Shown: in pieces, positions 4,039 through 32,938 of the stretch
Position numbering within the stretch: the first letter of the stretch is position 1
How the letters are laid out: every line of letters starts with the position of its first letter
Source of the DNA: Amycolatopsis pithecellobii
Lineage (GTDB): Bacteria > Actinomycetota > Actinomycetes > Mycobacteriales > Pseudonocardiaceae
DNA: 64,000 nucleotides
Assembly (NCBI RefSeq): GCF_009707865.1
Contig: NZ_WMBA01000016.1
Span: 1 to 64,000, forward strand
Reading direction: 5' to 3'
The notes under the pieces: model-generated
The model's database searches: none
Told to the model about the DNA's origin: nothing
The model's input: only the letters and a program-made list of their open reading frames with translations
Translations under genes and position numbers: made by a program

Positions 4039-4455
4039 TCAGCGGGACGGCTGGGCCGGAATCGTGGGCAGCAGGTCCACGACGTCGGCGTGCAGTGTCG
4101 CGAGACCTTGATCGAAGGTCACCAGCCGGCCGGCGTTGATTCGTGCGAGGTGCGCGAGGTAAGCGTCCGTGACCTGGCGATGGCCGAGGATGCCGTTCAT
4201 GGGCACCTCGCCGTAGGTGATGGAGTCAGGCCAGAATTCATGCCGGTCGCCGGCCTCGATCAAGCCCAGCAGGGCTTGCGCGTCGTCCGCTGTCTGCCCT
4301 TCGCGGATCAGCAGCCGCACGAGGCTTCCTTGCGTGATCGGGCAGGTGGCGAACGGGTCGGCGGAGCCGGCGAACCACGTCTCGGCAGCGGCATGGTGCA
4401 CGTGGTCGTCGACCACGAGGGCAATGAGGACGTTCGCATCGAGGAGTGTCGTCAC
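4039..4455 (-). CDS. vapC: VapC-like PIN-domain toxin
   Basis: PIN-domain ribonuclease of 138 residues. The first metal-binding Asp sits in LLDANVLIALV (Asp6), with further acidic positions in QVTDAYLAHLA and VTFDQGL, as in VapC proteins. Such toxins cleave specific tRNA or rRNA sites when released from their antitoxin. The start overlaps the upstream antitoxin stop by 4 bp (ATGA), the classic antitoxin-toxin order. It ends against the shared terminator with glyS. Confidence 0.88.
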   Translation of the reverse strand: MTTLLDANVLIALVVDDHVHHAAAETWFAGSADPFATCPITQGSLVRLLIREGQTADDAQALLGLIEAGDRHEFWPDSITYGEVPMNGILGHRQVTDAYLAHLARINAGRLVTFDQGLATLHADVVDLLPTIPAQPSR

Positions 4456-4676
4456 TCGTCGTCCAGTGATCGGACATCGTCGGTCGTGATGACCTTGCCA
4501 AGTCGGATCACGGGCAGTCCGGTGCGTGAGCTTCGCGCGGCCGGAGCCGCCTTACCTTGGCGGAGACCGCGTTGCATAAGTTCGGCGACGACCTCACTGA
4601 GCGTGCGTGAAGTATCGCGAGCTAGCGAGAGAGCCTGTCGGTGCAGGTCATCAGGCAGGTCGACCGTGGTCCGCAT
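4452..4676 (-). CDS. vapB: VapB-like ribbon-helix-helix antitoxin
   Basis: Small protein of 74 residues. The N terminus (RTTVDLPDDLHRQALSLA) is a ribbon-helix-helix DNA-binding fold, and the C-terminal tail (PVIRLGKVITTDDVRSLDDE) is the extended acidic segment that wraps and inhibits a PIN toxin. GATGAGGG lies just upstream of ATG 4676 as ribosome binding site, and TTAAGAT ahead of it could be the -10 box. The protein would also bind and repress this promoter, as other VapB proteins do. Confidence 0.87.
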   Translation of the reverse strand: MRTTVDLPDDLHRQALSLARDTSRTLSEVVAELMQRGLRQGKAAPAARSSRTGLPVIRLGKVITTDDVRSLDDE

Positions 4677-4706
4677 GCCCTCATCTTAACATCGGTGCAT
4701 CAAGAT

Positions 4707-4731
4707 GCGCCCCGGGTCGAGCCCGGGGCGC
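4707..4731 (-). terminator. Hairpin after the AhpD-like gene
   Basis: Perfect 10-bp GC-rich stem GCGCCCCGGG / CCCGGGGCGC with a 5-base loop, directly downstream of the minus-strand gene that stops at 4741 and upstream of the VapBC promoter. It likely insulates the toxin-antitoxin pair. Confidence 0.6.
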
Positions 4732-18194: not shown

Positions 18195-18210
18195 CAGTAC
18201 GCTCGTACTG
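18195..18210. promoter_or_regulatory. Perfect 16-bp palindrome at the tam start
   Basis: CAGTACG / CGTACTG arms separated by CT end on the first base of the GTG start at 18210. The embedded TACGCT (18198-18203) is also positioned as a -10 box for a leaderless transcript. It could be a repressor site covering the promoter of the methyltransferase gene. Confidence 0.45.
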
Positions 18211-18974
18211 TGTGGGACCCTGCGAAGTACCTTGCCTACGCTGACCAGCGCGGACGCCCGTTTCACGAGCTCGTGGGCCGGATCGACGCGGCGGCGCCGC
18301 GCCGGGTGGTGGACCTGGGTTGCGGGCCGGGGAACCTGACGAAAACCCTGGCATCACGCTGGCCGTCGGCGACCCTGGAGGCGTCGGACAGTTCACCCGA
18401 AATGGTGGCAGCAGCCCTCGCCGCGGGGGTGCCGGCGCAGGTGCAGGATGTGCACGATTGGCAGCCCGCGCCGGATACCGACGTGGTGCTGACGAACGCG
18501 GTGTTGCAGTGGGTGCCGGATCACCGGGAGTTGTTGCGCCGCTGGGCGGGGGAGTTGCCGTCGGGCGCTTGGCTGGGGATGCAGGTGCCCGGCAATTTCG
18601 GCGCGCCGTCGCACACCCTGATCCGGGAACTGGCGTCGAGCCCCGCGTGGGCGGATGTGCTGGGCGCGGCGGTGTTCCGGGGCGACGAGACGGTCGGTGA
18701 GCCGCAGGACTATGCGGACCTGTTCGCCGATGCGGGTTGCCGGGTGGATGCCTGGGAGACCACCTACGTCCAGCGGCTGAGCGGTGCCGACCCGGTGCTG
18801 GAATGGGTGTCCGGCACCGCGCTGCGCCCGGTCAAGGCAGTACTGGGGGAGGCTGCATGGGAGCGTTTCCGGTCGGCGCTGGCCCCGCTGCTGGCCGAGG
18901 CGTACCCACCCCGCGCGGACGGCACGACCTGGTTCCGCTTCCGCCGGATCTTCGCCGTAGCCCGCATCCCGTAG
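18210..18974 (+). CDS. tam: Trans-aconitate 2-methyltransferase
   Basis: Class I SAM-dependent methyltransferase of 254 residues. The N terminus MWDPAKYLAYADQRGRPFHEL and motif I VVDLGCGPGNLTKTL are characteristic of Tam, which methylates trans-aconitate, an inhibitor of the citric acid cycle. Further support is TNAVLQWVPDH (motif with the substrate-side residues) and the C-terminal RFRRIFAVARIP. GTG 18210 appears leaderless: no Shine-Dalgarno is visible and a -10-like box lies six bases upstream. Confidence 0.88.
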   Translation: MWDPAKYLAYADQRGRPFHELVGRIDAAAPRRVVDLGCGPGNLTKTLASRWPSATLEASDSSPEMVAAALAAGVPAQVQDVHDWQPAPDTDVVLTNAVLQWVPDHRELLRRWAGELPSGAWLGMQVPGNFGAPSHTLIRELASSPAWADVLGAAVFRGDETVGEPQDYADLFADAGCRVDAWETTYVQRLSGADPVLEWVSGTALRPVKAVLGEAAWERFRSALAPLLAEAYPPRADGTTWFRFRRIFAVARIP

Positions 18975-19485: not shown

Positions 19486-19558
<73 letters not shown>

Positions 19559-19564
19559 CATTCG

Positions 19565-19591
19565 CCCCAGGTCAGTGGCCTGGGGTTTTTT
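19565..19591 (+). terminator. Intrinsic terminator of tRNA-Asn
   Basis: Stem CCCCAGG / CCTGGGG with a 7-base loop followed by six T residues (19586-19591), seven bases after the tRNA. This is the clearest factor-independent terminator in the window. Confidence 0.9.
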
Positions 19592-19960
19592 CATGTCCGG
19601 CTCCAGACGGCCAAACTGCACGTTTCATCTGCTCAGCACCTTCCCGTTGATCGTCCTCTGTGGACTCTGCGAACATCCATTCCAGTGGCCCGGTAGTGCC
19701 GCTCGACGACCTGTGGTGTGTTGCCGAGCTGGTCCGTGATCGCCGTCGTTGGCAGGCCCGCCTGGTCAAGCACCGTCGCGACCGTCCTGCGCCACACATG
19801 GTTGGTGACCAATCCGAAGCCGGTCTCGTTGAGCGCTTGGCGGAACCGGTGGATCGCATTCGACGGGTCCAACCACTGCCCATTCCAGGACGCGACCAGC
19901 GGGCCACCCGGCCACTGGACGACGACGGCCCCGGAGTCTGCGTCGTTACTCCGGGGCCGG
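19572..19960 (-). pseudogene. Tyrosine recombinase (integrase) C-terminal remnant
   Basis: The minus strand encodes a recognisable end of a phage/AICE-type integrase: WLDPSNAIHRFRQALNETGF, then LVTNHVWRRTVATVLDQAG, and TDQLGN ... VVERHYRA with the catalytic His-Arg and Tyr positions. The N-terminal two thirds, including the first catalytic Arg, are missing. After HYRATG the more plausible continuation (LEWMFAES) is in another frame, so a frameshift probably lies near 19685. It faces tRNA-Asn, the usual position for the integrase of a tRNA-inserted element. Nonfunctional. Confidence 0.75.
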
Positions 19961-19976
19961 TTTGGTGTCGCCAAGG

Positions 19977-20312
19977 TCAACGTGTTGTCGACATCGTCCC
20001 CAGCGGAGCAGCTACGAACACGGTCACCCAGAGAATGCACACCACCAGCGCGATGACCGAGGTCGTCAGACCAGCGATCGCCACGCCCTTGTTATCGGCT
20101 CGGCCGGTGCGGACATAGTTGATGCCGACACCGGAGAGGACGGTGCCCACGATGGACAGCGGCCACGCGATCACACCAATGACCGGAACGAACGAGAAGA
20201 CCAGAGCGACAATTCCGAGGACCATTCCGGAGACACCGAGGCCGTTCCTTGGGGATTGCTTGTTGTAGAACTGCTGGTCATACCCGCCGGGGTAGGGGTT
20301 GGGTTGGTTCAC
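19977..20312 (-). CDS. DUF4190-like small membrane protein
   Basis: Protein of 111 residues: a short Pro/Tyr/Gln-rich cytosolic start (NQPNPYPGGYDQQFYNKQS) and two membrane helices (GMVLGIVALVFSFVPVIGVI and AIAGLTTSVIALVVCILWVT) separated by a Gly-rich turn, the DUF4190 pattern. GTG 20312 is chosen since AAGGAG lies 7 bases upstream and the DUF4190 pattern begins there. Codon use is less GC-rich than in neighbouring housekeeping genes. It lies inside the decayed tRNA-Asn element and may be cargo. Function unknown. Confidence 0.72.
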   Translation of the reverse strand: MNQPNPYPGGYDQQFYNKQSPRNGLGVSGMVLGIVALVFSFVPVIGVIAWPLSIVGTVLSGVGINYVRTGRADNKGVAIAGLTTSVIALVVCILWVTVFVAAPLGTMSTTR

Positions 20313-20681
20313 TGGGTGATCTCCTTCGTTGAATGCGCGACACCAGGTCGTAGTTCGCAAGGGGATTGTTACGGGCTGTCCGGTTTCTGTCCCCTCTTTC
20401 CCCCCTTTGTCACTCAAACGCGGGTACAGCAGTTGCCGCGCGTCCGCGACATCGCGAACGACGTACGGCGTGTACCAGGAGCCGGCGAGCATCGAGGCAC
20501 AGTCCGCGGTGCAGGTGTTCGTGCCGTGCCACGTCGGCGACATGGGCGCACGGCACCAGCGCGGAGACTGTGGCTCCGCCGTCGCCGGCCGAGCCCCACA
20601 TCTCGACACCGCCGAGTACCGGGTTGGTTGGCGAGATGCTCCACAGTGCCGGGTCTCGTGTAGCTCGGCCAGCTTGCCGGC
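20313..20681. other. Gene-poor stretch inside the decayed element
   Basis: No intact gene is convincing here. The minus strand carries fragments such as ADCASMLAGSWYTPYVVRDV that look like coding remains with atypical codon use, but no start, length or family supports a gene. It is best read as debris of the element inserted at tRNA-Asn. Confidence 0.5.
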
Positions 20682-20786
20682 CTACGCCGCGGCCCAGTCA
20701 CACCCCGGCGCCTGCGCTGCGATGGCCTGGGCGGGGGTGATGGCGGCGAGGACCGCGAGGACGAGCGCGACGAACGGGATCCTCAT
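20682..20786 (-). CDS. Possible tiny secreted peptide or gene remnant
   Basis: ATG 20786, preceded by GGGTGGGG, opens a 34-residue frame beginning MRIPFVALVLAVLAAITPAQA, a good signal peptide, then about 13 residues and a stop. It is either the 5' stub of a truncated secreted protein or a very small exported peptide. Its place inside the decayed element favours a stub. Confidence 0.35.
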   Translation of the reverse strand: MRIPFVALVLAVLAAITPAQAIAAQAPGCDWAAA

Positions 20787-20959
20787 AGTCCCCACCCTCG
20801 ATGGGTGTCGGGAATGGATGGGAGCCCGCTACCGGCGTGGTGGAGAACGACGCTGAACGCGGTGGCGGCGAAGACGAACGCGATGTCGAGCGCTTCGCCA
20901 CACCGGCCGCGCCTCGCCGGGTCGGGGCGAGTACCGGGCCATGGTCGTAGAGCTCACGC

Positions 20960-21230
20960 ATCACTCCTCACCCCGCTCGGCGCGGATGGTGGCCACGGCT
21001 TCGGCGAGCTGCTCGTGGGTCCGGCTTGTTTCGCTCGGCGCGCTGCTGGTCGAGCGTCTTGTCGTACTCGCCGCCGGTGAGCCGGTGCAGGGCATCCAGG
21101 GCGACCGGTCATGCCGAAACGGTCGACGGCACGCCATGGGGTGCGCTCGGCGAGCAGCGCCTGAACCGCGTGGAGGGCTCGGTCGCGGCGGTCGAGGAAT
21201 TGCAGCGTAACGCTATTACGCGCCGTGAAA
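20960..21230 (-). pseudogene. Degenerate mobile-element gene
   Basis: Minus-strand fragments in different frames look like one former gene: ALHAVQALLAERTPWRAVDR, then HRLTGGEYDKTLDQQRAERN, then HEQLAEAVATIRAERGEE. Such small acidic/basic helical proteins are common cargo of actinobacterial integrative elements, but I cannot name the family. At least two frameshifts break it. It lies just inside the right copy of the 15-bp tRNA repeat. Confidence 0.4.
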
Positions 21231-21249
21231 CGGGTGAGTGCGCCAATAC

Positions 21250-21264
21250 CCGAAGGGTTGTTGG
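21250..21264 (+). repeat. Right attachment-site core
   Basis: Exact copy of CCGAAGGGTTGTTGG from tRNA-Asn, same orientation, 1,726 bp away. No tRNA structure surrounds it. It is the expected right junction of the decayed element, and the NACHT operon begins just beyond it. Confidence 0.65.
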
Positions 21265-21329
21265 CGCGCTCGCTGCCTTGCTCGCGACCCGGCGGGGGTT
21301 TTCCCGTGCGGTAACGTCTTTCCGGGTTG

Positions 21330-21341
21330 AAACGATCGTTT
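21330..21341. promoter_or_regulatory. Perfect 12-bp palindrome upstream of the NACHT operon
   Basis: AAACGATCGTTT lies 41 bp before the first start codon of the five-gene operon, in an otherwise short leader. It is a reasonable operator for the operon, and TTGAAA overlapping its left side could be a -35 box. No regulator gene is adjacent. Confidence 0.4.
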
Positions 21342-21382
21342 GCTGTACGGGCCGGCGTTGGCGAGCAGGAGGAACCTCCCTC

Positions 21383-21886
21383 ATGGATTTCTTGGATCAG
21401 GCGCAGACGACACTCGCGACCGAGGGAGTGAAATTTCTTGTCAGCCAGGCGGGGGAGTTGGTCAAGTGGTGGCGCGAACGCAGGTCCGCCAAGGATCGGG
21501 CCCTTGCGGAAGGTGTGCAGGTCGCGCCGCAGGTTGATGAGAAGCTCGTCGAAGAAGTCGACGAGCATCAGCAAATATTGACCAGCGCGGTGGACCGGCC
21601 CGACGGGATTTCCGCCGAGCAGGCCGAGGAACTGCTCAACCGGGTGCGGGAATTGCAGGAACTGCTGCGCACAGCTCTCATCGTGGAAACCCCGCCGGCC
21701 CAAGCCACCGGGAAGCAGACCAAATTGCGTGCGGTCTTGGACGTCGATCTGGTGCAGGGCAAGGTTTCCGGCATCTCGGCTCGGCGCGCCCGCGGCGACG
21801 TGGACGTCAGCGCCGAGGTCAAGACGGGCAACGTCAGCAGCAGCGGCCAAGTGCACGGCATCGAAATCGACGAGATAGGCGGATAG
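21383..21886 (+). CDS. Small helical/beta-repeat protein, first gene of NACHT operon
   Basis: Protein of 167 residues that I do not assign to a family. The N-terminal half is helical and charged (DFLDQAQTTLATEGVKFLV, KWWRERRSAKDRALAEG) and probably coiled-coil; residues 80-100 form another helix. The last 50 residues are short alternating beta strands rich in Gly, Val and Ser (DVDLVQGKVSGI, GDVDVSAEVKTGNVSSSGQV), a pattern seen at ends of proteins that work with STAND NTPases. AGGAGGA nine bases before ATG gives a very strong ribosome binding site. It abuts the NACHT gene with no gap, so the products probably act together, perhaps as adaptor or sensor. Confidence 0.75.
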   Translation: MDFLDQAQTTLATEGVKFLVSQAGELVKWWRERRSAKDRALAEGVQVAPQVDEKLVEEVDEHQQILTSAVDRPDGISAEQAEELLNRVRELQELLRTALIVETPPAQATGKQTKLRAVLDVDLVQGKVSGISARRARGDVDVSAEVKTGNVSSSGQVHGIEIDEIGG

Positions 21887-24868
21887 TTGCCTCGTCCCGC
21901 GAGCCTCGTACCCGCCGAACTGAAAAACCGGTTACCCGCCCTGAGCGCGAGACCATGGGTGTCCGACCGGATCGCAGCCTGGCACCTCGGCACCGACCGG
22001 TTCTTTCTCCTTTCCGGCGGGCCCGGAACCGGCAAGACCATGATCTCGGCACTCACCCTGGCCAACGACACCACGAACCTGTGGACAGCGAGCTATTTCT
22101 GCTCCAACCGGCTCACCGGATTTTCCTATCATCCCCGGCAATTCGTCATGCGGATACAGGAAAACCTGCTCGACCACTACCCGCAGGCCTACCTGTCGCG
22201 GGAACTGCGCACACTGATGAACTTCACGGCGAACGTCTCCGCCGATTCCGTGCCCGGGACCGCGACCGGTATCGCGATCGGACACCTGACAGCCTCGCCG
22301 ATCTCGCTCGACGACTACTTCCAGACGATGATCATCGAGCCACTGCACGAGATTTCGCGACTTTATCCGGACGCCCGGCCAGGCATCCTCATCGATGGGC
22401 TCGACGAAGCCGTCGCACACGAAGGCACGGGAATCCATGACCTGATGGCCAAGTACGCCTCGGCCTTCCCCGGTAACTGCAAGATCCTGATCACCTCGCA
22501 GAACACCCCGCGGATCATCGACTCCCTGCTGGCCGCGGCACAGGACGTCGTCCATCTTGATCTGTCCGAAAAGGACAACCGTGCCACCGCGAGCGACGAC
22601 GTACGCAACTATGTGCGCAACGCGCTCAGCGCGGCGCCCGCGACCAAGGAAATCGCCGACGATATCGCCGAATCGGCACAGGGGAACTTCCTCTGGGCCG
22701 GAAGCCTGGTACGAGAAGTGCTGGGAGACGCCGGTGTGGACCACGCGATAACCGACCACAACGGACTCGACAGGTACTACGCCGGGCTGCTGGACCGGCT
22801 GAAACGAGCCGTGGACGACGATCCCGCGATCGACTGGACCCATGACTGCCTGGCACTGATGCACTGCCTCGCAGTGGCGCAGACAGCGTTGTCGTCGCGG
22901 CAGCTCGCCGCGTTACTGGAGATCGGGGAACCGCGCCTGTCCGTCGCATTGCGCGTCATGCGTACGTTCCTCCAAGTCGATTCCGGCTACGAAAGCATCA
23001 GCCTCGAACACAAATCGGTCGCCCAGTTCCTGCTTACGCCGACACTGTCCGACGGCAGCCCCAACAGCCACGCCGTGCGCGAGGACGAAGCACACCGGGC
23101 GGTGGCCGACCGGATCGTGCGGCAGCTCGCCGAGGAGTGGCACGGCCGGTGGAGCGACGCCGACAGCTACGCGGTGATGTACCTGGCCGCGCACCTCAAC
23201 CGCCTGCGGAGCCTGACCGGTGCGCCACCGGGGTACACCCGGGAACAGGTGCGGCTGCCCGAATTGGCACGCCGCATCGGCACGGACCCGGCGCTGGCCG
23301 GCGATCACTACGAGGCGATGTCCCAGGTGCTGATCGCGTCCCGCCGGCTGTGGCCGGAGCATGAATACGAGGCCGTGGTCGCGGAAAGTGCCCAGTCCTC
23401 GGACCCTTATGTCCGGGCCGCCGTCGTCGACGCGCTGGTCGAATCGGCCGGCGTCGATCCGGCACGCACCGGGAGAATTGTTTACGACCTCCTCAAAAGC
23501 GAACACCTGCACGCCTGGACGACCGCCCTGTACGCCGCGATGCGGCTGCAGCCGAAATCGCGGCACGAAATAGTGCTGTGGATCGCCTGTCACGGTACGG
23601 CCGAGTTGCGCACCTACGCCGGGTACATGCTTTACCTGCTCGCCGGCGGGGACCGGGAACTCATCGCCGCCGGTATGCTCAAAGCCGTCGCGCAGAACAT
23701 CTCGGTCGTCCGGATCGCCCGGACACGGCGCATTCTCGAATTCCTGTCCAATATCAGTATCACGGCCTATGTCAACAACTGTGACGATCCGGCGGTCGCG
23801 ATCGCGACCAGTGAATTGTGGCAGTACATCGCGATCAAGCGGCTACATCTTCGCCTCGTCAACCGGCCGGCCCTGGAGAAGCCGATCATTTCCGTGGCGG
23901 CGAAACGGATCGCGAGCCGGCTCGTGGAAAATGACGTGCTGCGCGGTCAGATCGGCGCGCTGCCCGAGCGATACCAGGATCTCGCCGGGCAACTGCTGCC
24001 CGCGCTGACACCCGGGCATGACCTGTCGGGGCTCATCGGCCCGCTCCGCGACGGATTTTCCTCGGACGCCTGGGCGCCGCGCATCCTCAGCGGCTGCGTC
24101 GTGGCCGTCCAGGCCATCACCGATCTCGACGCCTGCGCGCGCCCCTTGGACGAGTTGTTCTCCGAAAGTACCGCAGACGCACGACTGTGGCAGGTTGTCG
24201 CGTTCGCCGTCCTTTTGAAGCGCACCCCCGAAGCGCTGCCGGACCGCCTGGCAGCCATGACCGGCAAGGTACTCACCGAACATCGCGCGAGCCTCGTCCG
24301 CTATCTGGCCGGCGACGGTGCGTCGGTCAATCTTTTCGCGGTGACCCTCCCGCTGGCCTACGCGAAACACGGGCGCCCGCTGACCGACCTGGTGACCGGG
24401 GCTCTGGAGGACGACGACGAGACCGTGCGTCAGTCCAATTTGGAGGGACTTGCCGCGGTCGGTCTGTACTATCCGGACGCCGTGCTCGCCGCACTGGCAC
24501 AGGTCCGCGACCCGTTCGGGCGCGAGGAGGTCAGAGCCGGGCTCCTGCGGATCTTGTCCCGCATGTACCCGATGCATCCCACGATGGTGGATGTCTTTCT
24601 GCGCGAAATGGGCCCGGTGGCCAGGCTCGGCGGCCTCGAAGCGGGGGAGATGGATTTCGCGCGCCATTACGTCGACGCACTCGGGCTGTACAACAATGCG
24701 GTGCACCAGGCGATCCATTACCCGTTGATGCGCCGGGAGGTGCTCGGCGCCGGTTTCGCGGAGATGTTCCAGGCCCGCACCCCGGGCGACTTCATCAAGA
24801 ACTACGCCCGCCGAATCATGAAACTGCTGCGAGACAGCGAGTACGAGGTCATTCGTTGGACGCGGTGA
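21887..24868 (+). CDS. NACHT-type STAND NTPase with helical-repeat C terminus
   Basis: Large P-loop signalling ATPase of 993 residues. Walker A GGPGTGKT is at residues 44-51, Walker B ILIDGLDEA at 167-175 with the extra acidic residue of NACHT proteins, and a sensor segment KILITSQN near 198. GNFLWAGSLVREVL and SLEHKSVAQFLL are the winged-helix landmarks of STAND proteins. Residues from about 340 to the end are alpha-helical and look like HEAT-type repeats. TTG 21887 directly follows the preceding stop. Such NTPases are molecular switches in immunity and programmed responses; here the partners are membrane prenyltransferases, which is unusual. Confidence 0.88.
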   Translation: MPRPASLVPAELKNRLPALSARPWVSDRIAAWHLGTDRFFLLSGGPGTGKTMISALTLANDTTNLWTASYFCSNRLTGFSYHPRQFVMRIQENLLDHYPQAYLSRELRTLMNFTANVSADSVPGTATGIAIGHLTASPISLDDYFQTMIIEPLHEISRLYPDARPGILIDGLDEAVAHEGTGIHDLMAKYASAFPGNCKILITSQNTPRIIDSLLAAAQDVVHLDLSEKDNRATASDDVRNYVRNALSAAPATKEIADDIAESAQGNFLWAGSLVREVLGDAGVDHAITDHNGLDRYYAGLLDRLKRAVDDDPAIDWTHDCLALMHCLAVAQTALSSRQLAALLEIGEPRLSVALRVMRTFLQVDSGYESISLEHKSVAQFLLTPTLSDGSPNSHAVREDEAHRAVADRIVRQLAEEWHGRWSDADSYAVMYLAAHLNRLRSLTGAPPGYTREQVRLPELARRIGTDPALAGDHYEAMSQVLIASRRLWPEHEYEAVVAESAQSSDPYVRAAVVDALVESAGVDPARTGRIVYDLLKSEHLHAWTTALYAAMRLQPKSRHEIVLWIACHGTAELRTYAGYMLYLLAGGDRELIAAGMLKAVAQNISVVRIARTRRILEFLSNISITAYVNNCDDPAVAIATSELWQYIAIKRLHLRLVNRPALEKPIISVAAKRIASRLVENDVLRGQIGALPERYQDLAGQLLPALTPGHDLSGLIGPLRDGFSSDAWAPRILSGCVVAVQAITDLDACARPLDELFSESTADARLWQVVAFAVLLKRTPEALPDRLAAMTGKVLTEHRASLVRYLAGDGASVNLFAVTLPLAYAKHGRPLTDLVTGALEDDDETVRQSNLEGLAAVGLYYPDAVLAALAQVRDPFGREEVRAGLLRILSRMYPMHPTMVDVFLREMGPVARLGGLEAGEMDFARHYVDALGLYNNAVHQAIHYPLMRREVLGAGFAEMFQARTPGDFIKNYARRIMKLLRDSEYEVIRWTR

Positions 24869-25881
24869 CGGGCGGGCGGTTGCGGCAGCTGGGCCGTTTC
24901 CTCCGCCTTCCCTCGATCGGCGTGACCCTTGCTGTGGTCTTGCTGGGCGTAGTCAGTGGTTCGGACCAAACCTCGGCAGCGCGCATCGGCGTCATGCTGA
25001 CCGTCGGCGTGCTTTTTCATGTCGGTGTCTATGTACTGAACGACATCGTCGACGTGGACCTCGACCGCACCGATCCTCGCCGCGCGGGCGCACCGCTCAT
25101 GGCGGGAACGGTTTCGACACCCGTCGCGTACGGAGTCGTAGTGCTGTGCCTGCTGGTGGCTTTCGTACTGCCGGCCGCGACGGTGAACGCGACAACGTTC
25201 ATCTGCCTCATCGCCGCGACCGCCGGGCTGGCGGTTTATGACGTCTTCGGTAAGCGCTTTCCGTTTCCGCCCTTGACCGACCTCGCGCAAGGCGCCGGAT
25301 GGGGATTCCTGTTGCTGGCCGGGTGTGCGGCGAATGGCCCGATCAATGCGGCGGCGGTGCTGCTGTCCTGTTCCATCGCCGCTTACGTGATGGTGGTGAC
25401 CGGAATCCCCGCCGGGCTGCGTGATCTGCCCAACGACGCACGGCATGGGGCCAGGACGACGGCACTGATGTTCGTCCGTGCCCAGGAAATGCCCGCCGAA
25501 CTGCCCCGTCCCTATGTCGCGTACGGCCTGGCGGTGAACGGAATCTCCGTGACAACCGGCGTGGCGGGAATGGCGATCCTACCCGGGCGCACCGAAGTGG
25601 GTATCGCGATCGCGGTGCTGGGTCAACTGGTGAGCATGGCCGCACTCTGGCGCGGTACCTGGTATTACCGGCCCGATCAGGCCGGCGCCCGGCTTGGACT
25701 GCTCTACGTGCTCCTGCCTTGGTCATCGTTGCTGGTCGCGGCATTTACGCGGTACGGCGTGTGGCCCGCGTTGCTCGCGGCGGTATTTCCCTTGCTGCCG
25801 TGGCTCGGCAGCCGGATCGTCCAGTCGATTCTCGCCGGATCTTCCGAATGGACCGGCGCAGGTGATCCCGATGCGGGTTGA
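24865..25881 (+). CDS. UbiA-family membrane prenyltransferase, first copy
   Basis: Membrane enzyme of 338 residues with eight or nine helices. Both Mg-binding Asp motifs of UbiA enzymes are intact: NDIVDVDLDRTDPRRAGAPL and DLPNDARHGARTT. Family members transfer isoprenoid chains to aromatic rings, glycerol phosphate or other acceptors; the acceptor cannot be predicted. GTG 24865 overlaps the NACHT stop by 4 bp, and a TTG at 24856 is the alternative. The next UbiA gene overlaps by 11 bp. Two different UbiA genes in tandem suggest two successive steps or a heteromeric unit. Confidence 0.88.
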   Translation: MTGGRLRQLGRFLRLPSIGVTLAVVLLGVVSGSDQTSAARIGVMLTVGVLFHVGVYVLNDIVDVDLDRTDPRRAGAPLMAGTVSTPVAYGVVVLCLLVAFVLPAATVNATTFICLIAATAGLAVYDVFGKRFPFPPLTDLAQGAGWGFLLLAGCAANGPINAAAVLLSCSIAAYVMVVTGIPAGLRDLPNDARHGARTTALMFVRAQEMPAELPRPYVAYGLAVNGISVTTGVAGMAILPGRTEVGIAIAVLGQLVSMAALWRGTWYYRPDQAGARLGLLYVLLPWSSLLVAAFTRYGVWPALLAAVFPLLPWLGSRIVQSILAGSSEWTGAGDPDAG

Positions 25882-26764
25882 GCAGTCCTTTCGTCGGCAG
25901 TTCACGCGCAGCGTGGCCGCGTACATGACATTGTTGCGGGTGAGGAGCTGTCTGAGCGCCGGGCTCCTTTTCGTGCTCGGGGCGCTGTCGCGGGCGGGTG
26001 CGGTTTCGCTCGCGCACCTGGCGATCGGCGCGGCGGCGGTCTGTTTCGCCGTGGCACAGGCAAATGTGGTGAACGACATCGTGGACCGCCGGGTGGACGC
26101 GATCGACCAGCCGTGGCGGCCGTTGCCGGGCGGGACGATCTCGCTCCGCTCGGCCTGGGTGTCCTATGTGGTCTGTTGTGCCTCGACCGGCTGCCTCGGC
26201 TGGTTGGCGAGCCCGGACCTCGGGCTGTGGGCGATCGTGATGGTCGCCCTTTCAGGGGTTTATTCGTGGTGGCTGAAATCCACGGTATTGCTGGGCAATA
26301 TCGTGATCGGGCTGATGGCCACGAGTCCCTTGCTGATCGGGGCGCGGCTGGCCACCGGGCTGGGCGGGGAGCTGGCGGTCAAGGCACTGGCGATCTGCGT
26401 GTCCATGTGGTCGTTCGAGGTGGTCAAAACGGCCAGGGACGCGCACGGTGACGCGGCCGGGGGACTGCGGACCGTGGCCACCCGCCTCGGCGTCGATCGT
26501 GCCGTGCGGCTGGGCATCCGGCTGTGTGAGTTCGCCGGTGTGCCGGCCGCCGGCGCTGCTTTCCTGTCGCCACAAGGAGCGGCGTTCGGTGTGGTCTTCG
26601 TGGTTTTCGTCGTGTTTCCGATAGTCAGGTTCTACCATAGGGAGATGCTGGTGTCGTCGACGTTTTCCGCGAGTGACGCGATGAACTTGTTCGCCGTCAT
26701 GAGCAGGACATGGAAGTTCGGCTTCCTCGCGCTCGCTGTGTCCGTTGTGGACATCGACCTGTGA
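25871..26764 (+). CDS. UbiA-family membrane prenyltransferase, second copy
   Basis: Membrane enzyme of 297 residues, only distantly similar to its neighbour. It retains NDIVDRRVDAIDQPWRPLPGG (first Asp motif followed by the Arg-Pro of the geranylgeranylglyceryl-phosphate/chlorophyll synthase branch) and KTARDAHGDAAGGLRTVATR (second motif). Eight or so helices span the chain. ATG 25871 lies inside the end of the preceding gene, and its stop overlaps the oxidoreductase start by 4 bp. Both motifs being intact argues that this enzyme is active. Confidence 0.88.
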   Translation: MRVEQSFRRQFTRSVAAYMTLLRVRSCLSAGLLFVLGALSRAGAVSLAHLAIGAAAVCFAVAQANVVNDIVDRRVDAIDQPWRPLPGGTISLRSAWVSYVVCCASTGCLGWLASPDLGLWAIVMVALSGVYSWWLKSTVLLGNIVIGLMATSPLLIGARLATGLGGELAVKALAICVSMWSFEVVKTARDAHGDAAGGLRTVATRLGVDRAVRLGIRLCEFAGVPAAGAAFLSPQGAAFGVVFVVFVVFPIVRFYHREMLVSSTFSASDAMNLFAVMSRTWKFGFLALAVSVVDIDL

Positions 26765-28050
26765 AGCGCGCGGTTGTTGTCGGAAGTGGCATCTCCGGCC
26801 TGGCGGCGGCCTGGAAACTGACCAGGCAGGGCTGGCAGGTCACGGTTCTCGAGCGGGACCAGTGGATCGGTGGCCGCGTGCGGCGAGTCGCCTACGAGGG
26901 CATGGACATCGACGTCGGCGCCGCCTTCGTCACCGACTTCTATTTCCACGCCAGAAAGATCATGCGGGAAATCGGCCTCGAAAACGAACTGGTGCGATTC
27001 TCGCTGGACTCCGCTGTCGAGCACGACGGGAAGCTGAAATCGTTGTGGCCATTACCGGAGATGGTGGCGGAAGGCCTGCTGCCGGTCACGGCGTTGGTCC
27101 GGCTCGCGGCCGGCACGATGACCTTGGCGCCGAAATGGTTGTCGTTGAATCCGGGGGATCTGGATGCCGGGATCGCGTACGACGACGAGACTGCGCAATC
27201 GTGGTCGGAGCGAGTGTATGGCGCCGAGGTGACCGAGCGGGTGATCAAACCCTTGTTGCGCGGAGTCGTGCACTGGGACGCGGAAACGACGTCCCGTGCG
27301 GTGTTGTTCGCGATGTTGAAGGCTTTTCTGGCCCATCCACGGGCTTACGTGCCGCGCACGGGAATGGCGGCGCTACCGCTGGCGATGGCAGACGGGCTGA
27401 CGGTGCAGACCGGTGCCCGGGTGACCGGGATCGTCCGCAGCGGTACCGGGTGGGCTGTCCACTGTGACCGGGATGGCGGCCCGGAAACGTTCGAGGCCGA
27501 CGCGGTGGTGTGCAGTGCACCTGCGACACAGGTCGCGGACCTGGTGCCGGAACTGTCTCATGTAGACAAAGAGTTCTTCGCCGGCGTCCGGTATTCGAGT
27601 ACCGCGGTGGCAGTGGTCAAGGTCGATGGCAAGCCGGACACGTTGCGGAAATCCGTCTGGTTCACGATGCAAGACCAGTCGTCCATTGTGGGCATGACCC
27701 CGTACTTGTTCCGGGACGACGATCGGGACTACTCGATCGTCCGGATATCGCTGTCCGATCCGGCTTACCGCGGCAACGCCGGAATGTCGGACGGTGAACT
27801 GGGGCAGTTCGTCATCGACTCGGCGCGGCGCATGCCGCAGCTTTCCACGCTCCTGCGTTCCGGCAGCGTGGTCGGCTTGGCCCGCTGGCCCGAAGCCCTG
27901 CCGGTGTTCGACGTCGGCCACCTGAAAAAAGTGCGGTCCTGGCGATCCCGGAATTCCGGCTCACTGGTATTCGCGGGCGACTACCTGCGCGGGCCGTACT
28001 TGGAAGGCGCGGTCCGCAGCGGGTTGGAGGCCGCCGCACGGCTCGGCTGA
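26761..28050 (+). CDS. FAD-dependent amine oxidase/desaturase-like oxidoreductase
   Basis: Flavoprotein of 429 residues. The N-terminal dinucleotide fold VVVGSGISGLAAAWKL and the following VLERDQWIGGRVRRV are standard for the amine oxidase, protoporphyrinogen oxidase and phytoene desaturase superfamily. The C terminus (SGSLVFAGDYLRGPYLEGAV) is the FAD-binding end of the same fold. It probably oxidises or reduces an isoprenoid product of the two UbiA enzymes. GTG 26761 overlaps the preceding stop. It ends one base from the convergent sirtuin gene, closing the operon. Confidence 0.88.
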   Translation: MKRAVVVGSGISGLAAAWKLTRQGWQVTVLERDQWIGGRVRRVAYEGMDIDVGAAFVTDFYFHARKIMREIGLENELVRFSLDSAVEHDGKLKSLWPLPEMVAEGLLPVTALVRLAAGTMTLAPKWLSLNPGDLDAGIAYDDETAQSWSERVYGAEVTERVIKPLLRGVVHWDAETTSRAVLFAMLKAFLAHPRAYVPRTGMAALPLAMADGLTVQTGARVTGIVRSGTGWAVHCDRDGGPETFEADAVVCSAPATQVADLVPELSHVDKEFFAGVRYSSTAVAVVKVDGKPDTLRKSVWFTMQDQSSIVGMTPYLFRDDDRDYSIVRISLSDPAYRGNAGMSDGELGQFVIDSARRMPQLSTLLRSGSVVGLARWPEALPVFDVGHLKKVRSWRSRNSGSLVFAGDYLRGPYLEGAVRSGLEAAARLG

Positions 28051-28051
28051 G

Positions 28052-28927
28052 TCAGGCCAGGCGCTGCGCCAGTTCGGTCAGCGCCTGCCCGAGCGGAAGG
28101 TCCACCCGCACCTGGGCATGCGCGTCGCCGCGGGTCCGGCCCTTGTTGACGATCACCACCGGCTTCCCGGATTTGGCCGCGTGGCGCACGAAACGCAAGC
28201 CGGACATGACCGTCAACGACGAGCCCAGGACCAGCAGGGCGCGAGCCTCGTCGACCATCCGGTAGCACTCGCCGACCCGCACCGGGGGTACGTTCTCGCC
28301 GAAGAACACCACGTCCGGCTTCAGCACACCCGAACCGCACGCGTCACACGAGACCAGCCGGAACTCGCGAACCACATCGTCGGGCAGATCGACGTCACCG
28401 TCCGGGTTGACCTGCGTGGCGTCGGCGGTGAACCCCGGATTCGCCGCCCGCAACCGGCGGTCGAGAAGCTCGCGGTCACTGAACTGGCGGCAGTCGAGGC
28501 ACACCACGCGATCCAGGCTGCCGTGCAGTTCGATCACCTCGCCGGTGCCTGCCGACTGGTGCAGCCCGTCGACGTTCTGCGTGATGACCCCCGACACGAA
28601 CCCGCTCGCCCGCAACGCCGACACCGCCCGGTGCCCGGCGTTGGGCCGCGCCCGCGCGATCAGCCGCCAGCCGAGATGGCTGCGCGCCCAGTACCGGCGG
28701 CGGCCTTCCTCGCTGGTCACGAACTCCTGGTAGGTCATCGGGCTGTGCCGCCGCAGGCTGCCTTCGGTGCCGCGATAGTCCGGGATCCCGGATTCGGTGG
28801 ACAGCCCCGCGCCGCTCAGAACCACCACGTCACCTTCGGCGACGACACGCACGACCTCGTGCAGCTCGGTCGTGCGTGGCAGGGGCTCACCCTTGGGGGT
28901 CCAGCTCAGGGTCGGTTTCGTGCGCAC
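28052..28927 (-). CDS. Sir2-family NAD-dependent protein deacylase (class II)
   Basis: Sirtuin of 291 residues. NAD-binding GAGLSTESGIPDYRG, the catalytic region ITQNVDGLHQSAG ... ELHG with active-site His, and two zinc-binding CxxC pairs (CLDC, CDAC) are all present. The GAGLSTESGIPDYR form and the long spacer place it in the SIRT4-like class II group. It removes acyl groups from Lys with NAD. It is a stand-alone housekeeping-type sirtuin and lacks the fusion or neighbours of Sir2 defence proteins, although it converges on the NACHT operon with one base between. Confidence 0.93.
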   Translation of the reverse strand: MRTKPTLSWTPKGEPLPRTTELHEVVRVVAEGDVVVLSGAGLSTESGIPDYRGTEGSLRRHSPMTYQEFVTSEEGRRRYWARSHLGWRLIARARPNAGHRAVSALRASGFVSGVITQNVDGLHQSAGTGEVIELHGSLDRVVCLDCRQFSDRELLDRRLRAANPGFTADATQVNPDGDVDLPDDVVREFRLVSCDACGSGVLKPDVVFFGENVPPVRVGECYRMVDEARALLVLGSSLTVMSGLRFVRHAAKSGKPVVIVNKGRTRGDAHAQVRVDLPLGQALTELAQRLA

Positions 28928-31113: not shown

Positions 31114-31237
31114 GTCGTGCCTCGTCCGGTGGTGCTCACACCAGCCTGGGCACCGCTGGCTCTTGCCTTGTGCCGACCGATCGGCTGAAATCGTTAGCAA
31201 CCGAAACTGTTGCGCGCGCTAAGTGAGTGGAGGGCAT

Positions 31238-32938
31238 GTGGCCGGGGCGGAGGTACGGGGTGACCGGTACAAGTGGGTGGCGCTGACCAACACGACGATC
31301 GGCGTGCTGCTCGCGACGATCGACTCGTCGATCATGCTGATCGCGATGCCTGACATCTTCCGCGGCATCCAGCTCGATCCGTTGTTGCCGGAGAACAGCT
31401 TCTACCTGCTGTGGATGATCCTCGGCTACCTCGTGACCAGCAGTGTGCTGGTGGTCAGCGTCGGGCGCCTTGGTGACCTGTTCGGCCGCGTGCGGATGTA
31501 CAACCTCGGCTTCGTCATCTACACTTTCGCCTCGCTGCTGCTGACCATCGACTGGATGACCGGGCACGCGGGCGCGATCTGGCTGCTCGTCTGGCGGATC
31601 GTGCAGGGGATCGGCGGCGCGTTCCTGGTCGGCAACTCCGGCGCCATCCTCACCGACGCGTTCCCTGCGCGGCAGCGGGGCCTGGCGCTGGGCATCAACA
31701 ACGTCGCCGGGATCAGCGGCACGTTCATCGGGCTCATTCTCGGCGGGCTGCTCGCGCCGATCAGCTGGCGGCTGGTGTTCCTGATCTCCGTGCCGTGCGG
31801 GGTGTTCGGCGCGGTGTGGGCCTACCGGCGGCTGCACGATCTGTCCCGCCGCTCGGGCGAACCGATCGACTGGCTGGGCAACGTCACGTTCGCGGTCGGG
31901 CTGATCCTCGTGATGGTCGGGATCACGCACGGCATCCAGCCCTACGGCGCGCACACCATGGGCTGGACGAGCCCGCTTGTCGTCGGCACCCTCGCCGGCG
32001 GAGTGGCGCTGCTGATCGCGTTCGGGATCATCGAGACCCGCGTGCCGTTCCCGATGTTCCGCCTGCCGCTGTTCAAGATCCGGGCGTTCACCTTCGGCAC
32101 GCTGTCGACGTTCCTGTCCGCGCTCGGCCGTGGCGGGCTGATGTTCATGCTGATCATCTGGCTGCAGGGGATCTGGCTGCCGCTGCACGGCTACAGCTTC
32201 GAGTCGACACCCCTGTGGGCGGGGATCTACATGGTGCCGCTGACCGTCGGTTTCCTTGCTGCGGGGCCGGTTTCGGGGTACCTGTCCGACCGGTTCGGCG
32301 CCCGGCCGTTCGCCACCACCGGGATGCTCGTGGCCGCGCTGACGTTCGGGCTGCTGGAACTGCTGCCGATCGACTTCCCGTACCCGGCGTTCGCGGGGAT
32401 CCTGTTGCTCAACGGGCTCGCGATGGGCTGTTTCGCGTCGCCGAACCGGGCGGCGGTGATGAACAGCCTGCCGGCGACCGATCGTGGCGCGGGCGGCGGA
32501 ATGAATTCCACTTTCCAGAACTCGGCGCAGGTGTTCTCGATCGGGATCTTCTTCTCGCTGATGATCACCGGACTCGCCGCGACGCTGCCCTCGGCGCTGA
32601 CGTCCGGTCTGTCCGCGCATCACGTGCCGCCCGGCGTGACCGCGCAGCTCGCCGCAAGCCCGCCGGTCTCGGTGCTGTTCGCGGCGTTCCTCGGCTACAA
32701 CCCGATGGAGCATCTGCTCGGCCCCGACGTGATCGCGAAGCTGCCGCCTGCGGACGCGGCCGCGCTGACCGGGCACGCGTTCTTCCCCGGGCTCATCTCG
32801 GGCCCGTTCCAGGCGGGCCTGCACATCGCGTTCGGCTTCGCCATCGCCACCTGCCTGATCGCCGCGGGGGCAAGCGCTTTCCGCGGCGACCGGTATGTGG
32901 CGGGTGAACTGCCGGTACTCGCCAAAAGAGCGTACTGA
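31238..32938 (+). CDS. MFS drug-exporter-like transporter (14-helix type)
   Basis: Major facilitator protein of 566 residues with about 14 membrane helices, matching the DHA2 family. Landmarks are the motif ATIDSSIMLIAMPDIFR in the first helix, GRLGDLFGRVRMYNLGFVIY (motif A) and WRIVQGIGGAFLVGNSGAIL (motif B/C region). GTG 31238 with GGAGG four bases upstream is preferred to GTG 31223. The upstream gap contains TTAGC ... GCTAA half-sites that may bind a TetR repressor. A 100-bp repeat element begins directly after its stop codon. Confidence 0.92.
   Translation: MAGAEVRGDRYKWVALTNTTIGVLLATIDSSIMLIAMPDIFRGIQLDPLLPENSFYLLWMILGYLVTSSVLVVSVGRLGDLFGRVRMYNLGFVIYTFASLLLTIDWMTGHAGAIWLLVWRIVQGIGGAFLVGNSGAILTDAFPARQRGLALGINNVAGISGTFIGLILGGLLAPISWRLVFLISVPCGVFGAVWAYRRLHDLSRRSGEPIDWLGNVTFAVGLILVMVGITHGIQPYGAHTMGWTSPLVVGTLAGGVALLIAFGIIETRVPFPMFRLPLFKIRAFTFGTLSTFLSALGRGGLMFMLIIWLQGIWLPLHGYSFESTPLWAGIYMVPLTVGFLAAGPVSGYLSDRFGARPFATTGMLVAALTFGLLELLPIDFPYPAFAGILLLNGLAMGCFASPNRAAVMNSLPATDRGAGGGMNSTFQNSAQVFSIGIFFSLMITGLAATLPSALTSGLSAHHVPPGVTAQLAASPPVSVLFAAFLGYNPMEHLLGPDVIAKLPPADAAALTGHAFFPGLISGPFQAGLHIAFGFAIATCLIAAGASAFRGDRYVAGELPVLAKRAY

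Follow-up and report, generated by a model that had tools for sequence, protein, structure and literature searches.

The 64,000-nucleotide stretch of Amycolatopsis pithecellobii DNA analysed here (the window, from a genome of 7.9 Mb in 144 contigs) carries five adjoining genes at 21383-28050 that encode a small adaptor-like protein, a NACHT NTPase, two UbiA-family prenyltransferases and an FAD-dependent oxidoreductase. The first two form a pair that recurs in other actinobacteria, and in the loci that we sampled the pair occurs without the other three (the trio). The combination of NACHT pair and prenyl trio is real here and, so far, a one-off. We consider it somewhat more probable than all the alternatives together that the predicted operon is a composite of two functionally separable modules, one an NLR-like signalling pair and the other a cassette for prenyl tailoring. 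The comparative evidence favors this composite reading over a recurring NTPase-prenyltransferase system.

A predicted five-gene operon next to a tRNA-Asn gene

All five open reading frames lie on the plus strand and their coordinates confirm the tight spacing claimed in the original prediction. The gene of the 167-aa small protein (21383-21886) is followed at a distance of 0 bp by that of the 993-aa NACHT protein (21887-24868), which in turn overlaps the first prenyltransferase gene, UbiA1 (24865-25881), by 4 bp (GTGA). UbiA1 overlaps the second prenyltransferase gene, UbiA2 (25871-26764), by 11 bp and the latter overlaps the flavoprotein gene (26761-28050) by 4 bp. The NACHT gene starts with TTG and the flavoprotein gene with GTG; for UbiA1 we used the GTG at 24865, although an in-frame TTG at 24856 is a possible alternative. 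Both the adaptor-like character of the first gene and a single tight predicted operon were supported, and Pfam domains and motifs bore out the identities proposed for the other four. The predicted operon is real in sequence and it is unusual; its five genes would be co-transcribed.

Upstream of the operon is an intact tRNA-Asn gene (gtt, 19486-19559, plus strand, identified with ARAGORN) that serves as the candidate integration site. It is followed by a decayed integrase C-terminal fragment on the minus strand (19633-20040; PF00589, E 0.00098, below the cut-off), the remnant of a tRNA-Asn element, and by an att-like 15-bp stretch identical to a segment of the tRNA gene (21250-21264, plus strand; blastn-short E 0.003) that ends 118 bp before the operon start. 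These three features support the earlier suggestion of a decayed tRNA-Asn element about 120 bp outside the operon. On the other side the island is bordered by a Sir2-family gene on the minus strand (28052-28927; PF02146).

All 19 genus genomes searched, that of the window among them, have the Sir2-family gene, which allowed us to look at the corresponding position in relatives. Up to ~14 kb on the operon side was scanned in 17 of the 18 other genus genomes (the 18th, on a 9-kb contig, was left out), and none of the five operon proteins was found beside the Sir2 gene in these 17 loci at E 1e-4. UbiA2 was absent from all 18 other genus genomes (E 1e-12), and the NACHT and small proteins were absent from the 10 other genus genomes sampled for them (E 1e-3, and E 1e-4 for the small-protein profile). 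This absence of the proteins tested bears out a strain-specific island, which adjoins a tRNA-Asn integration site. A tRNA-Asn gene fell within the fetched stretch in two of the 17 genus loci. In one of these, L125, its orientation is that seen in the window, and the ~11 kb that separate it from the Sir2 gene carry different genes. The different contents of the tRNA-to-Sir2 interval (19486-28052 in the window) in these two genomes suggest an integration hotspot.

The original prediction also held that the operon uses less extreme codons than its flanks. The direction was correct but the effect is mild: pooled operon GC3 is 0.812 compared to a flank mean of 0.861 (sd 0.051), and 9 of the 56 flank ORFs are lower than the operon. 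Composition is a weak witness for acquisition. It is likewise silent on whether the pair and the trio have separate origins. A seemingly strong difference did not withstand a size-matched null, in which 57 of 1000 pairs drawn from the flanks differed as much in codon usage as the NACHT gene and the trio do. We therefore rejected codon evidence for separate origins, as this difference is indistinguishable from chance.

The small protein and its NACHT partner

By both of its Walker motifs (Walker A, GGPGTGKT, at residue 44; Walker B, ILIDGLDE, at residue 167) the 993-aa protein is a predicted NACHT/STAND NTPase. Among Pfam families it matches NPHP3_N above the cut-off (E 9.5e-08) from residue 28 onwards and NACHT below the cut-off (E 5e-04). 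No effector domain was found N-terminal to the NTPase core. The C-terminus matches HEAT_2 just below the cut-off (E 2.5e-05) and is all-helical in a low-confidence model (mean pLDDT 44). The protein reached no NCBIfam cut-off and its PADLOC matches were weak and partial; eight proteins from related loci gave no PADLOC match at E 0.01.

The small protein is modeled by AlphaFold2 (mean pLDDT 73) as three helices followed by four beta strands, the latter forming a C-terminal element at residues 113-165 (21719-21877, plus strand). Neither Pfam nor NCBIfam has a family that it matches, PADLOC gave a weak match to a single model, and a Foldseek search of the PDB returned nothing at E 0.001 or better. 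Within the first 45 residues its maximum KD19 hydrophobicity is 0.65 (0.49-1.93 in 11 relatives), and no segment above 1.4 occurs anywhere in the protein.

To find relatives we used both single sequences and a profile of seven small proteins (that of the window and six relatives). Single-sequence searches of 200 same-family genomes, own genome included, found small-protein relatives in five others and NACHT relatives in five others, and the two were often adjacent. With the profile, 12 of the 200 family genomes and 2 of 197 class genomes proved to have small-protein loci; both counts include the window's own genome, in which contig 131 carries a second copy. Plasmid searches added two Streptomyces loci, in one of which (L162) BLAST makes clear only the C-terminal part of the profile. 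Scans of viral contigs with query proteins A1 and P0004 gave no relatives, and a DNA search of plasmids gave no matches.

Two different outcomes were obtained for the gene next to the small-protein gene in the 15 loci besides the window. In nine of them (L084, L085, L089, L090, L091, L092, L155, L162 and L164, from seven same-family genomes and two Streptomyces plasmids) the next gene encodes a NACHT-type protein, which is truncated in L092; for L162 and L164 Pfam confirmed the NACHT assignment. Identity to the window proteins is low, at 23-25% for the NACHT relatives and 26-31% for the small-protein relatives. At the C-terminus the NACHT proteins are diverse, with WD40 domains in L084, TPR domains in L085 and L091 and the sub-threshold HEAT match in the window, as is expected of sensors. 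Small protein and NACHT protein are a recurrent adjacent pair.

In the other six loci (L153, L154, L156, L157, L158 and L159) the next gene encodes a different family of large proteins. These are 575-1036 aa long and have, by eye, a P-loop-like stretch; five of the six matched no Pfam family and that of L158 gave a weak NPHP3_N match below the cut-off (E 0.007). A third gene of 256-350 aa follows closely in five of the six. By eye, integrase, transposase or OLD/AAA-like ORFs lie near some of these loci, and the large protein of L158 is apparently interrupted by a transposase-like ORF. The second copy in the window's own genome (L153, contig 131; small-protein gene at 4202-4726 of the locus) belongs here: it is followed by the different large protein and a 256-aa third gene, and integrase- and transposase-like ORFs are close to it, by eye. 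This second branch has the look of a conflict system of its own and is a candidate for one.

We compared the NACHT proteins with the beta element of their small partners, using a leave-one-out profile of the last 62 residues of the small-protein family against 200 shuffles. In six of nine pairs tested, that of the window among the nine, (L085, L089, L090, L091, L092 and L162) a match inside the NACHT protein beat every shuffle (0/200), at residues between 107 and 167, within the interval from Walker A to Walker B; these six are related to one another and so are not six independent tests. In the window the match is weak; it lies in the same interval at residues 118-130 (22238-22276, plus strand) and 5 of 200 shuffles were as good (7 of 200 with a second profile). 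L164 also gave 5 of 200. On the other hand, the match was not shown in L084 (38/200) or L155 (94/200), nor in the six large partners of the second branch (15 to 200 of 200). The element common to small protein and NACHT protein suggests homotypic beta contact as the mode of signaling, and by analogy the pair probably signals in this way, like BASS-type bacterial NLR signalosomes. A beta element duplicated in most of the partner NACHT domains tested would be a directly testable design for homotypic signaling.

The prenyl enzymes and their association with the pair

Both UbiA proteins match PF01040 above the cut-off (UbiA1, E 4e-19; UbiA2, E 5e-31), have several hydrophobic segments and, as originally claimed, retain intact Asp motifs, NDxxDxxxD and a second DxxxD in each. 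For UbiA1 the nearest solved relative is a 4-hydroxybenzoate octaprenyltransferase, weakly (4od4, E 0.002), and its scores are below the cut-offs of all 21 NCBIfam families matched. UbiA2 likewise falls below the cut-offs of all 25 families matched, the best score being 123.5 bits against the 269 required (NF009523, "prenyltransferase"). We rejected a recent tandem duplication as the origin of the two, as their best BLASTP match covers 40 residues around the motif (E 5e-04).

The flavoprotein belongs to the FAD amine-oxidase superfamily (PF01593, E 1e-42) and has the GxGxxG FAD motif. It is nearest to protoporphyrinogen oxidases (3i6d, E 5e-18) and to HpnE (E 2.8e-28), although it missed the equivalog cut-off for an HpnE hydroxysqualene dehydroxylase (99.4 vs 283 bits). 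It also weakly matches the PADLOC model C3a186 (desaturase, E 7.7e-09).

Relatives of the trio are distant. Among the matches listed, in samples of 46 to 394 genomes, no trio protein had a long match above ~40% identity; the best were 39% over ~107 residues for UbiA1 (200 genomes) and 38% over part of the protein for UbiA2 (297 genomes). At E 1e-15, a further 45 class genomes yielded no UbiA2 match. For the flavoprotein, no match reached E 1e-30 in the 199 other family genomes, while the 394-genome class sample gave two, with 27% and 31% identity; short matches to its FAD fingerprint reach 58% over 31 residues. In a tblastn search of plasmids, query P0003 gave no match and query P0004 one weak match, in Natrononativus.

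Prenyl or terpenoid gene sets surround some of these distant relatives. A UbiA2 relative in L095 lies beside polyprenyl synthase and aminotransferase genes, in a gene set that looks like an uncharacterised prenyl-product cluster. UbiA2 relatives in L095, L097, L098 and L099 lie in gene sets of similar gene-size layout. A UbiA1 relative (L094) is beside methyltransferases, and flavoprotein relatives are beside a terpene synthase (L102) or two genes from an annotated uppS on a Streptomyces plasmid (L161). Those on Phyllobacterium and Caballeronia plasmids (L160, L163) are among transport and other metabolic genes, without terpene genes. The likely chemistry of the trio is prenyl or terpenoid tailoring.

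To assess whether the pair is tied to such enzymes elsewhere, we used a UbiA profile of 11 rows to scan 18 stretches of 6.9 to 20 kb each: the 15 small-protein loci, plus three loci in which a NACHT relative lacks the small protein (L086-L088). Some rows had been chosen on weak scores, and the profile recovers the window UbiA proteins at E 7e-94 and 3e-72. A UbiA gene was joined to none of the nine small-protein/NACHT loci, none of the six other small-protein loci and none of the three NACHT relatives. The sole UbiA gene in the 18 stretches, which encodes a decaprenyl-phosphate phosphoribosyltransferase, is in L090, ~2.5 kb upstream of the small protein; two genes lie between them, one of these on the opposite strand. 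We rejected it as a partner of the pair. As none of the 15 small-protein loci has an adjoining UbiA gene, we also rejected a conserved NACHT-UbiA system. The recurring NTPase-prenyltransferase system that the original prediction envisaged was thus not borne out, as the homologous NACHT genes sampled were never joined to UbiA.

No relative was confirmed when contigs were scanned with P0002 and P0004; these scans required exact 8-residue peptides, which would miss most relatives of ~50% identity, and since both genome-wide scans are insensitive in this way the absence elsewhere rests on the samples. The relatives of NACHT and small protein are also distant enough for a younger, lineage-specific recruitment to be compatible with these data. 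In the nine other pair loci the gene after NACHT is on the opposite strand in four and on the same strand in five, the latter with gaps of 97-249 bp in four and 28 bp in L089. Only in the window, among the loci sampled, does the NACHT gene have a 4-bp overlap with the next gene (UbiA1), and being tighter than the other same-strand junctions this overlap is a hint of selected coupling.

Interpretation and relation to known systems

The gene structure, the pair without the trio elsewhere, the beta element in most NACHT relatives tested and the strain specificity frame the following scheme, in which we infer the co-transcription, the sensing, the assembly, the output, the substrates and the absence of functional gating. 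The C-terminal helical repeats of the NACHT protein would sense a stimulus and the protein would oligomerise with NTP. Its internal beta element may then offer a surface where the matching C-terminal element of the small protein assembles, and this could activate the N-terminal helical domain of the small protein, which is probably membrane-directed or scaffolding. Separately, the two UbiA enzymes would move prenyl groups to lipid or aromatic acceptors and the flavoprotein would oxidise the prenylated product. Both modules would have arrived at the tRNA-Asn site, and in this one strain we predict that they share a transcript and that their translation is coupled.

The overlapping starts and the lack of a NACHT effector domain leave room for functional gating in one strain. 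One possibility, which we consider unlikely, is that the activated pair recruits or switches on the UbiA enzymes and the flavoprotein as an NTPase-gated effector, altering membrane lipids or quinones for defence or stress. A single predicted polycistron, an NTPase match that begins at residue 28 with no effector domain ahead of it and the absence of the tested proteins from sampled genus relatives are all consistent with this; however, none of the 15 other small-protein loci is joined to UbiA, and the beta and helical elements of the pair leave no trace in the trio proteins. We rejected that the latter carry either element because 54 to 200 of 200 shuffles were as good for the beta element and 52 to 200 over all three profiles used. 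Among the open-access papers listed, none combined NACHT, UbiA, prenyltransferase and operon, and the one that mentions both NACHT and UbiA deals with DNA methylation clocks. A Streptomyces genome paper mentions prenyltransferase, phage defense and UbiA. If it is true that the pair gates the trio, membrane-lipid chemistry would join the outputs of bacterial NLR-like proteins. It is slightly less probable still that an NLR-like sensor, through its beta-motif partner, gates the two membrane prenyltransferases and the flavoprotein so that they remodel prenyl lipids or quinones upon infection or stress, as a lineage-specific replacement of a pore, nuclease or TIR output.

Another possibility is that the locus is a small specialised-metabolite cluster with the NACHT pair as pathway regulator or self-protection. 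Some distant trio relatives do occur in prenyl or terpenoid gene sets, but this is doubtful to the same degree as the replacement just described: Pfam found no HTH domain in the window NACHT or small protein, and no prenyl synthase is among the seven window neighbours scanned, though these include a methyltransferase (18210-18974) and an MFS transporter (31223-32938). Pair and trio are likewise without co-occurrence in the other loci sampled. By title and start of abstract, none of the literature matches listed paired a bacterial NLR or NACHT protein with a biosynthetic gene cluster. Finally, a decaying or non-expressed chance juxtaposition from recombination at the tRNA-Asn site, which the decayed element next door and the differing tRNA-Asn-to-Sir2 stretch of L125 might suggest, is very improbable given five open frames with intact catalytic motifs and touching or overlapping starts.

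The composite of pair and cassette can be compared with known systems module by module. The closest solved structure to UbiA2 is a digeranylgeranylglyceryl phosphate synthase, presumably archaeal (6m31, E 4e-18), which aligns over residues 11-250 of UbiA2, a protein with both Asp motifs. UbiA2 differs from such an enzyme in missing the NCBIfam equivalog cut-off (110 vs 296 bits, NF009521) and in its setting, a bacterial operon that encodes a flavoprotein and another UbiA protein as well.

The better-supported result concerns the actinobacterial small-protein/NACHT module, whose small protein matches nothing in Pfam or NCBIfam. According to PMC12169576, bNACHT anti-phage proteins have a NACHT core, like the window protein, and a C-terminal sensing region such as is predicted here. 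Canonical bNACHTs carry an N-terminal effector domain, whereas here the partner is a separate gene; some bNACHT clades have no discernible N-terminal effector domain (PMC12169576). In effector-associated-domain systems, adaptor domains in core and partner proteins provide homotypic bridging (PMC7159879, PMC8195603). The adaptors described there are alpha-helical, in contrast to the common beta element here, and Pfam and NCBIfam recognise no domain in the window small protein. Prenyl, UbiA and isoprenoid are not mentioned in the main texts of these two papers. As for known anti-phage defence systems with partners, PADLOC gave only weak or partial matches for the window.

The beta region of the pair is a four-strand element of ~50 residues, unlike the motifs of BASS-type signalosomes, which are shorter. 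According to PMC7889193, these signalosomes of filamentous bacteria are encoded by two-gene clusters, in which an NLR and a small effector have an amyloid-like motif in common. Like the window pair they are actinobacterial and encoded by adjacent or overlapping genes (0 bp apart here), and their small effector, like the small protein here, is helical with a C-terminal beta motif that is matched in the NLR, here in most of the relatives tested. In contrast, the BASS motif is at the N-terminus of the NLR while the window match is inside the NACHT protein at residues 118-130, and BELL domains have a predicted hydrophobic transmembrane helix that the window small protein lacks. Motif position and hydrophobic helix therefore place the pair outside the BASS/BELL group, to which it appears similar in logic.
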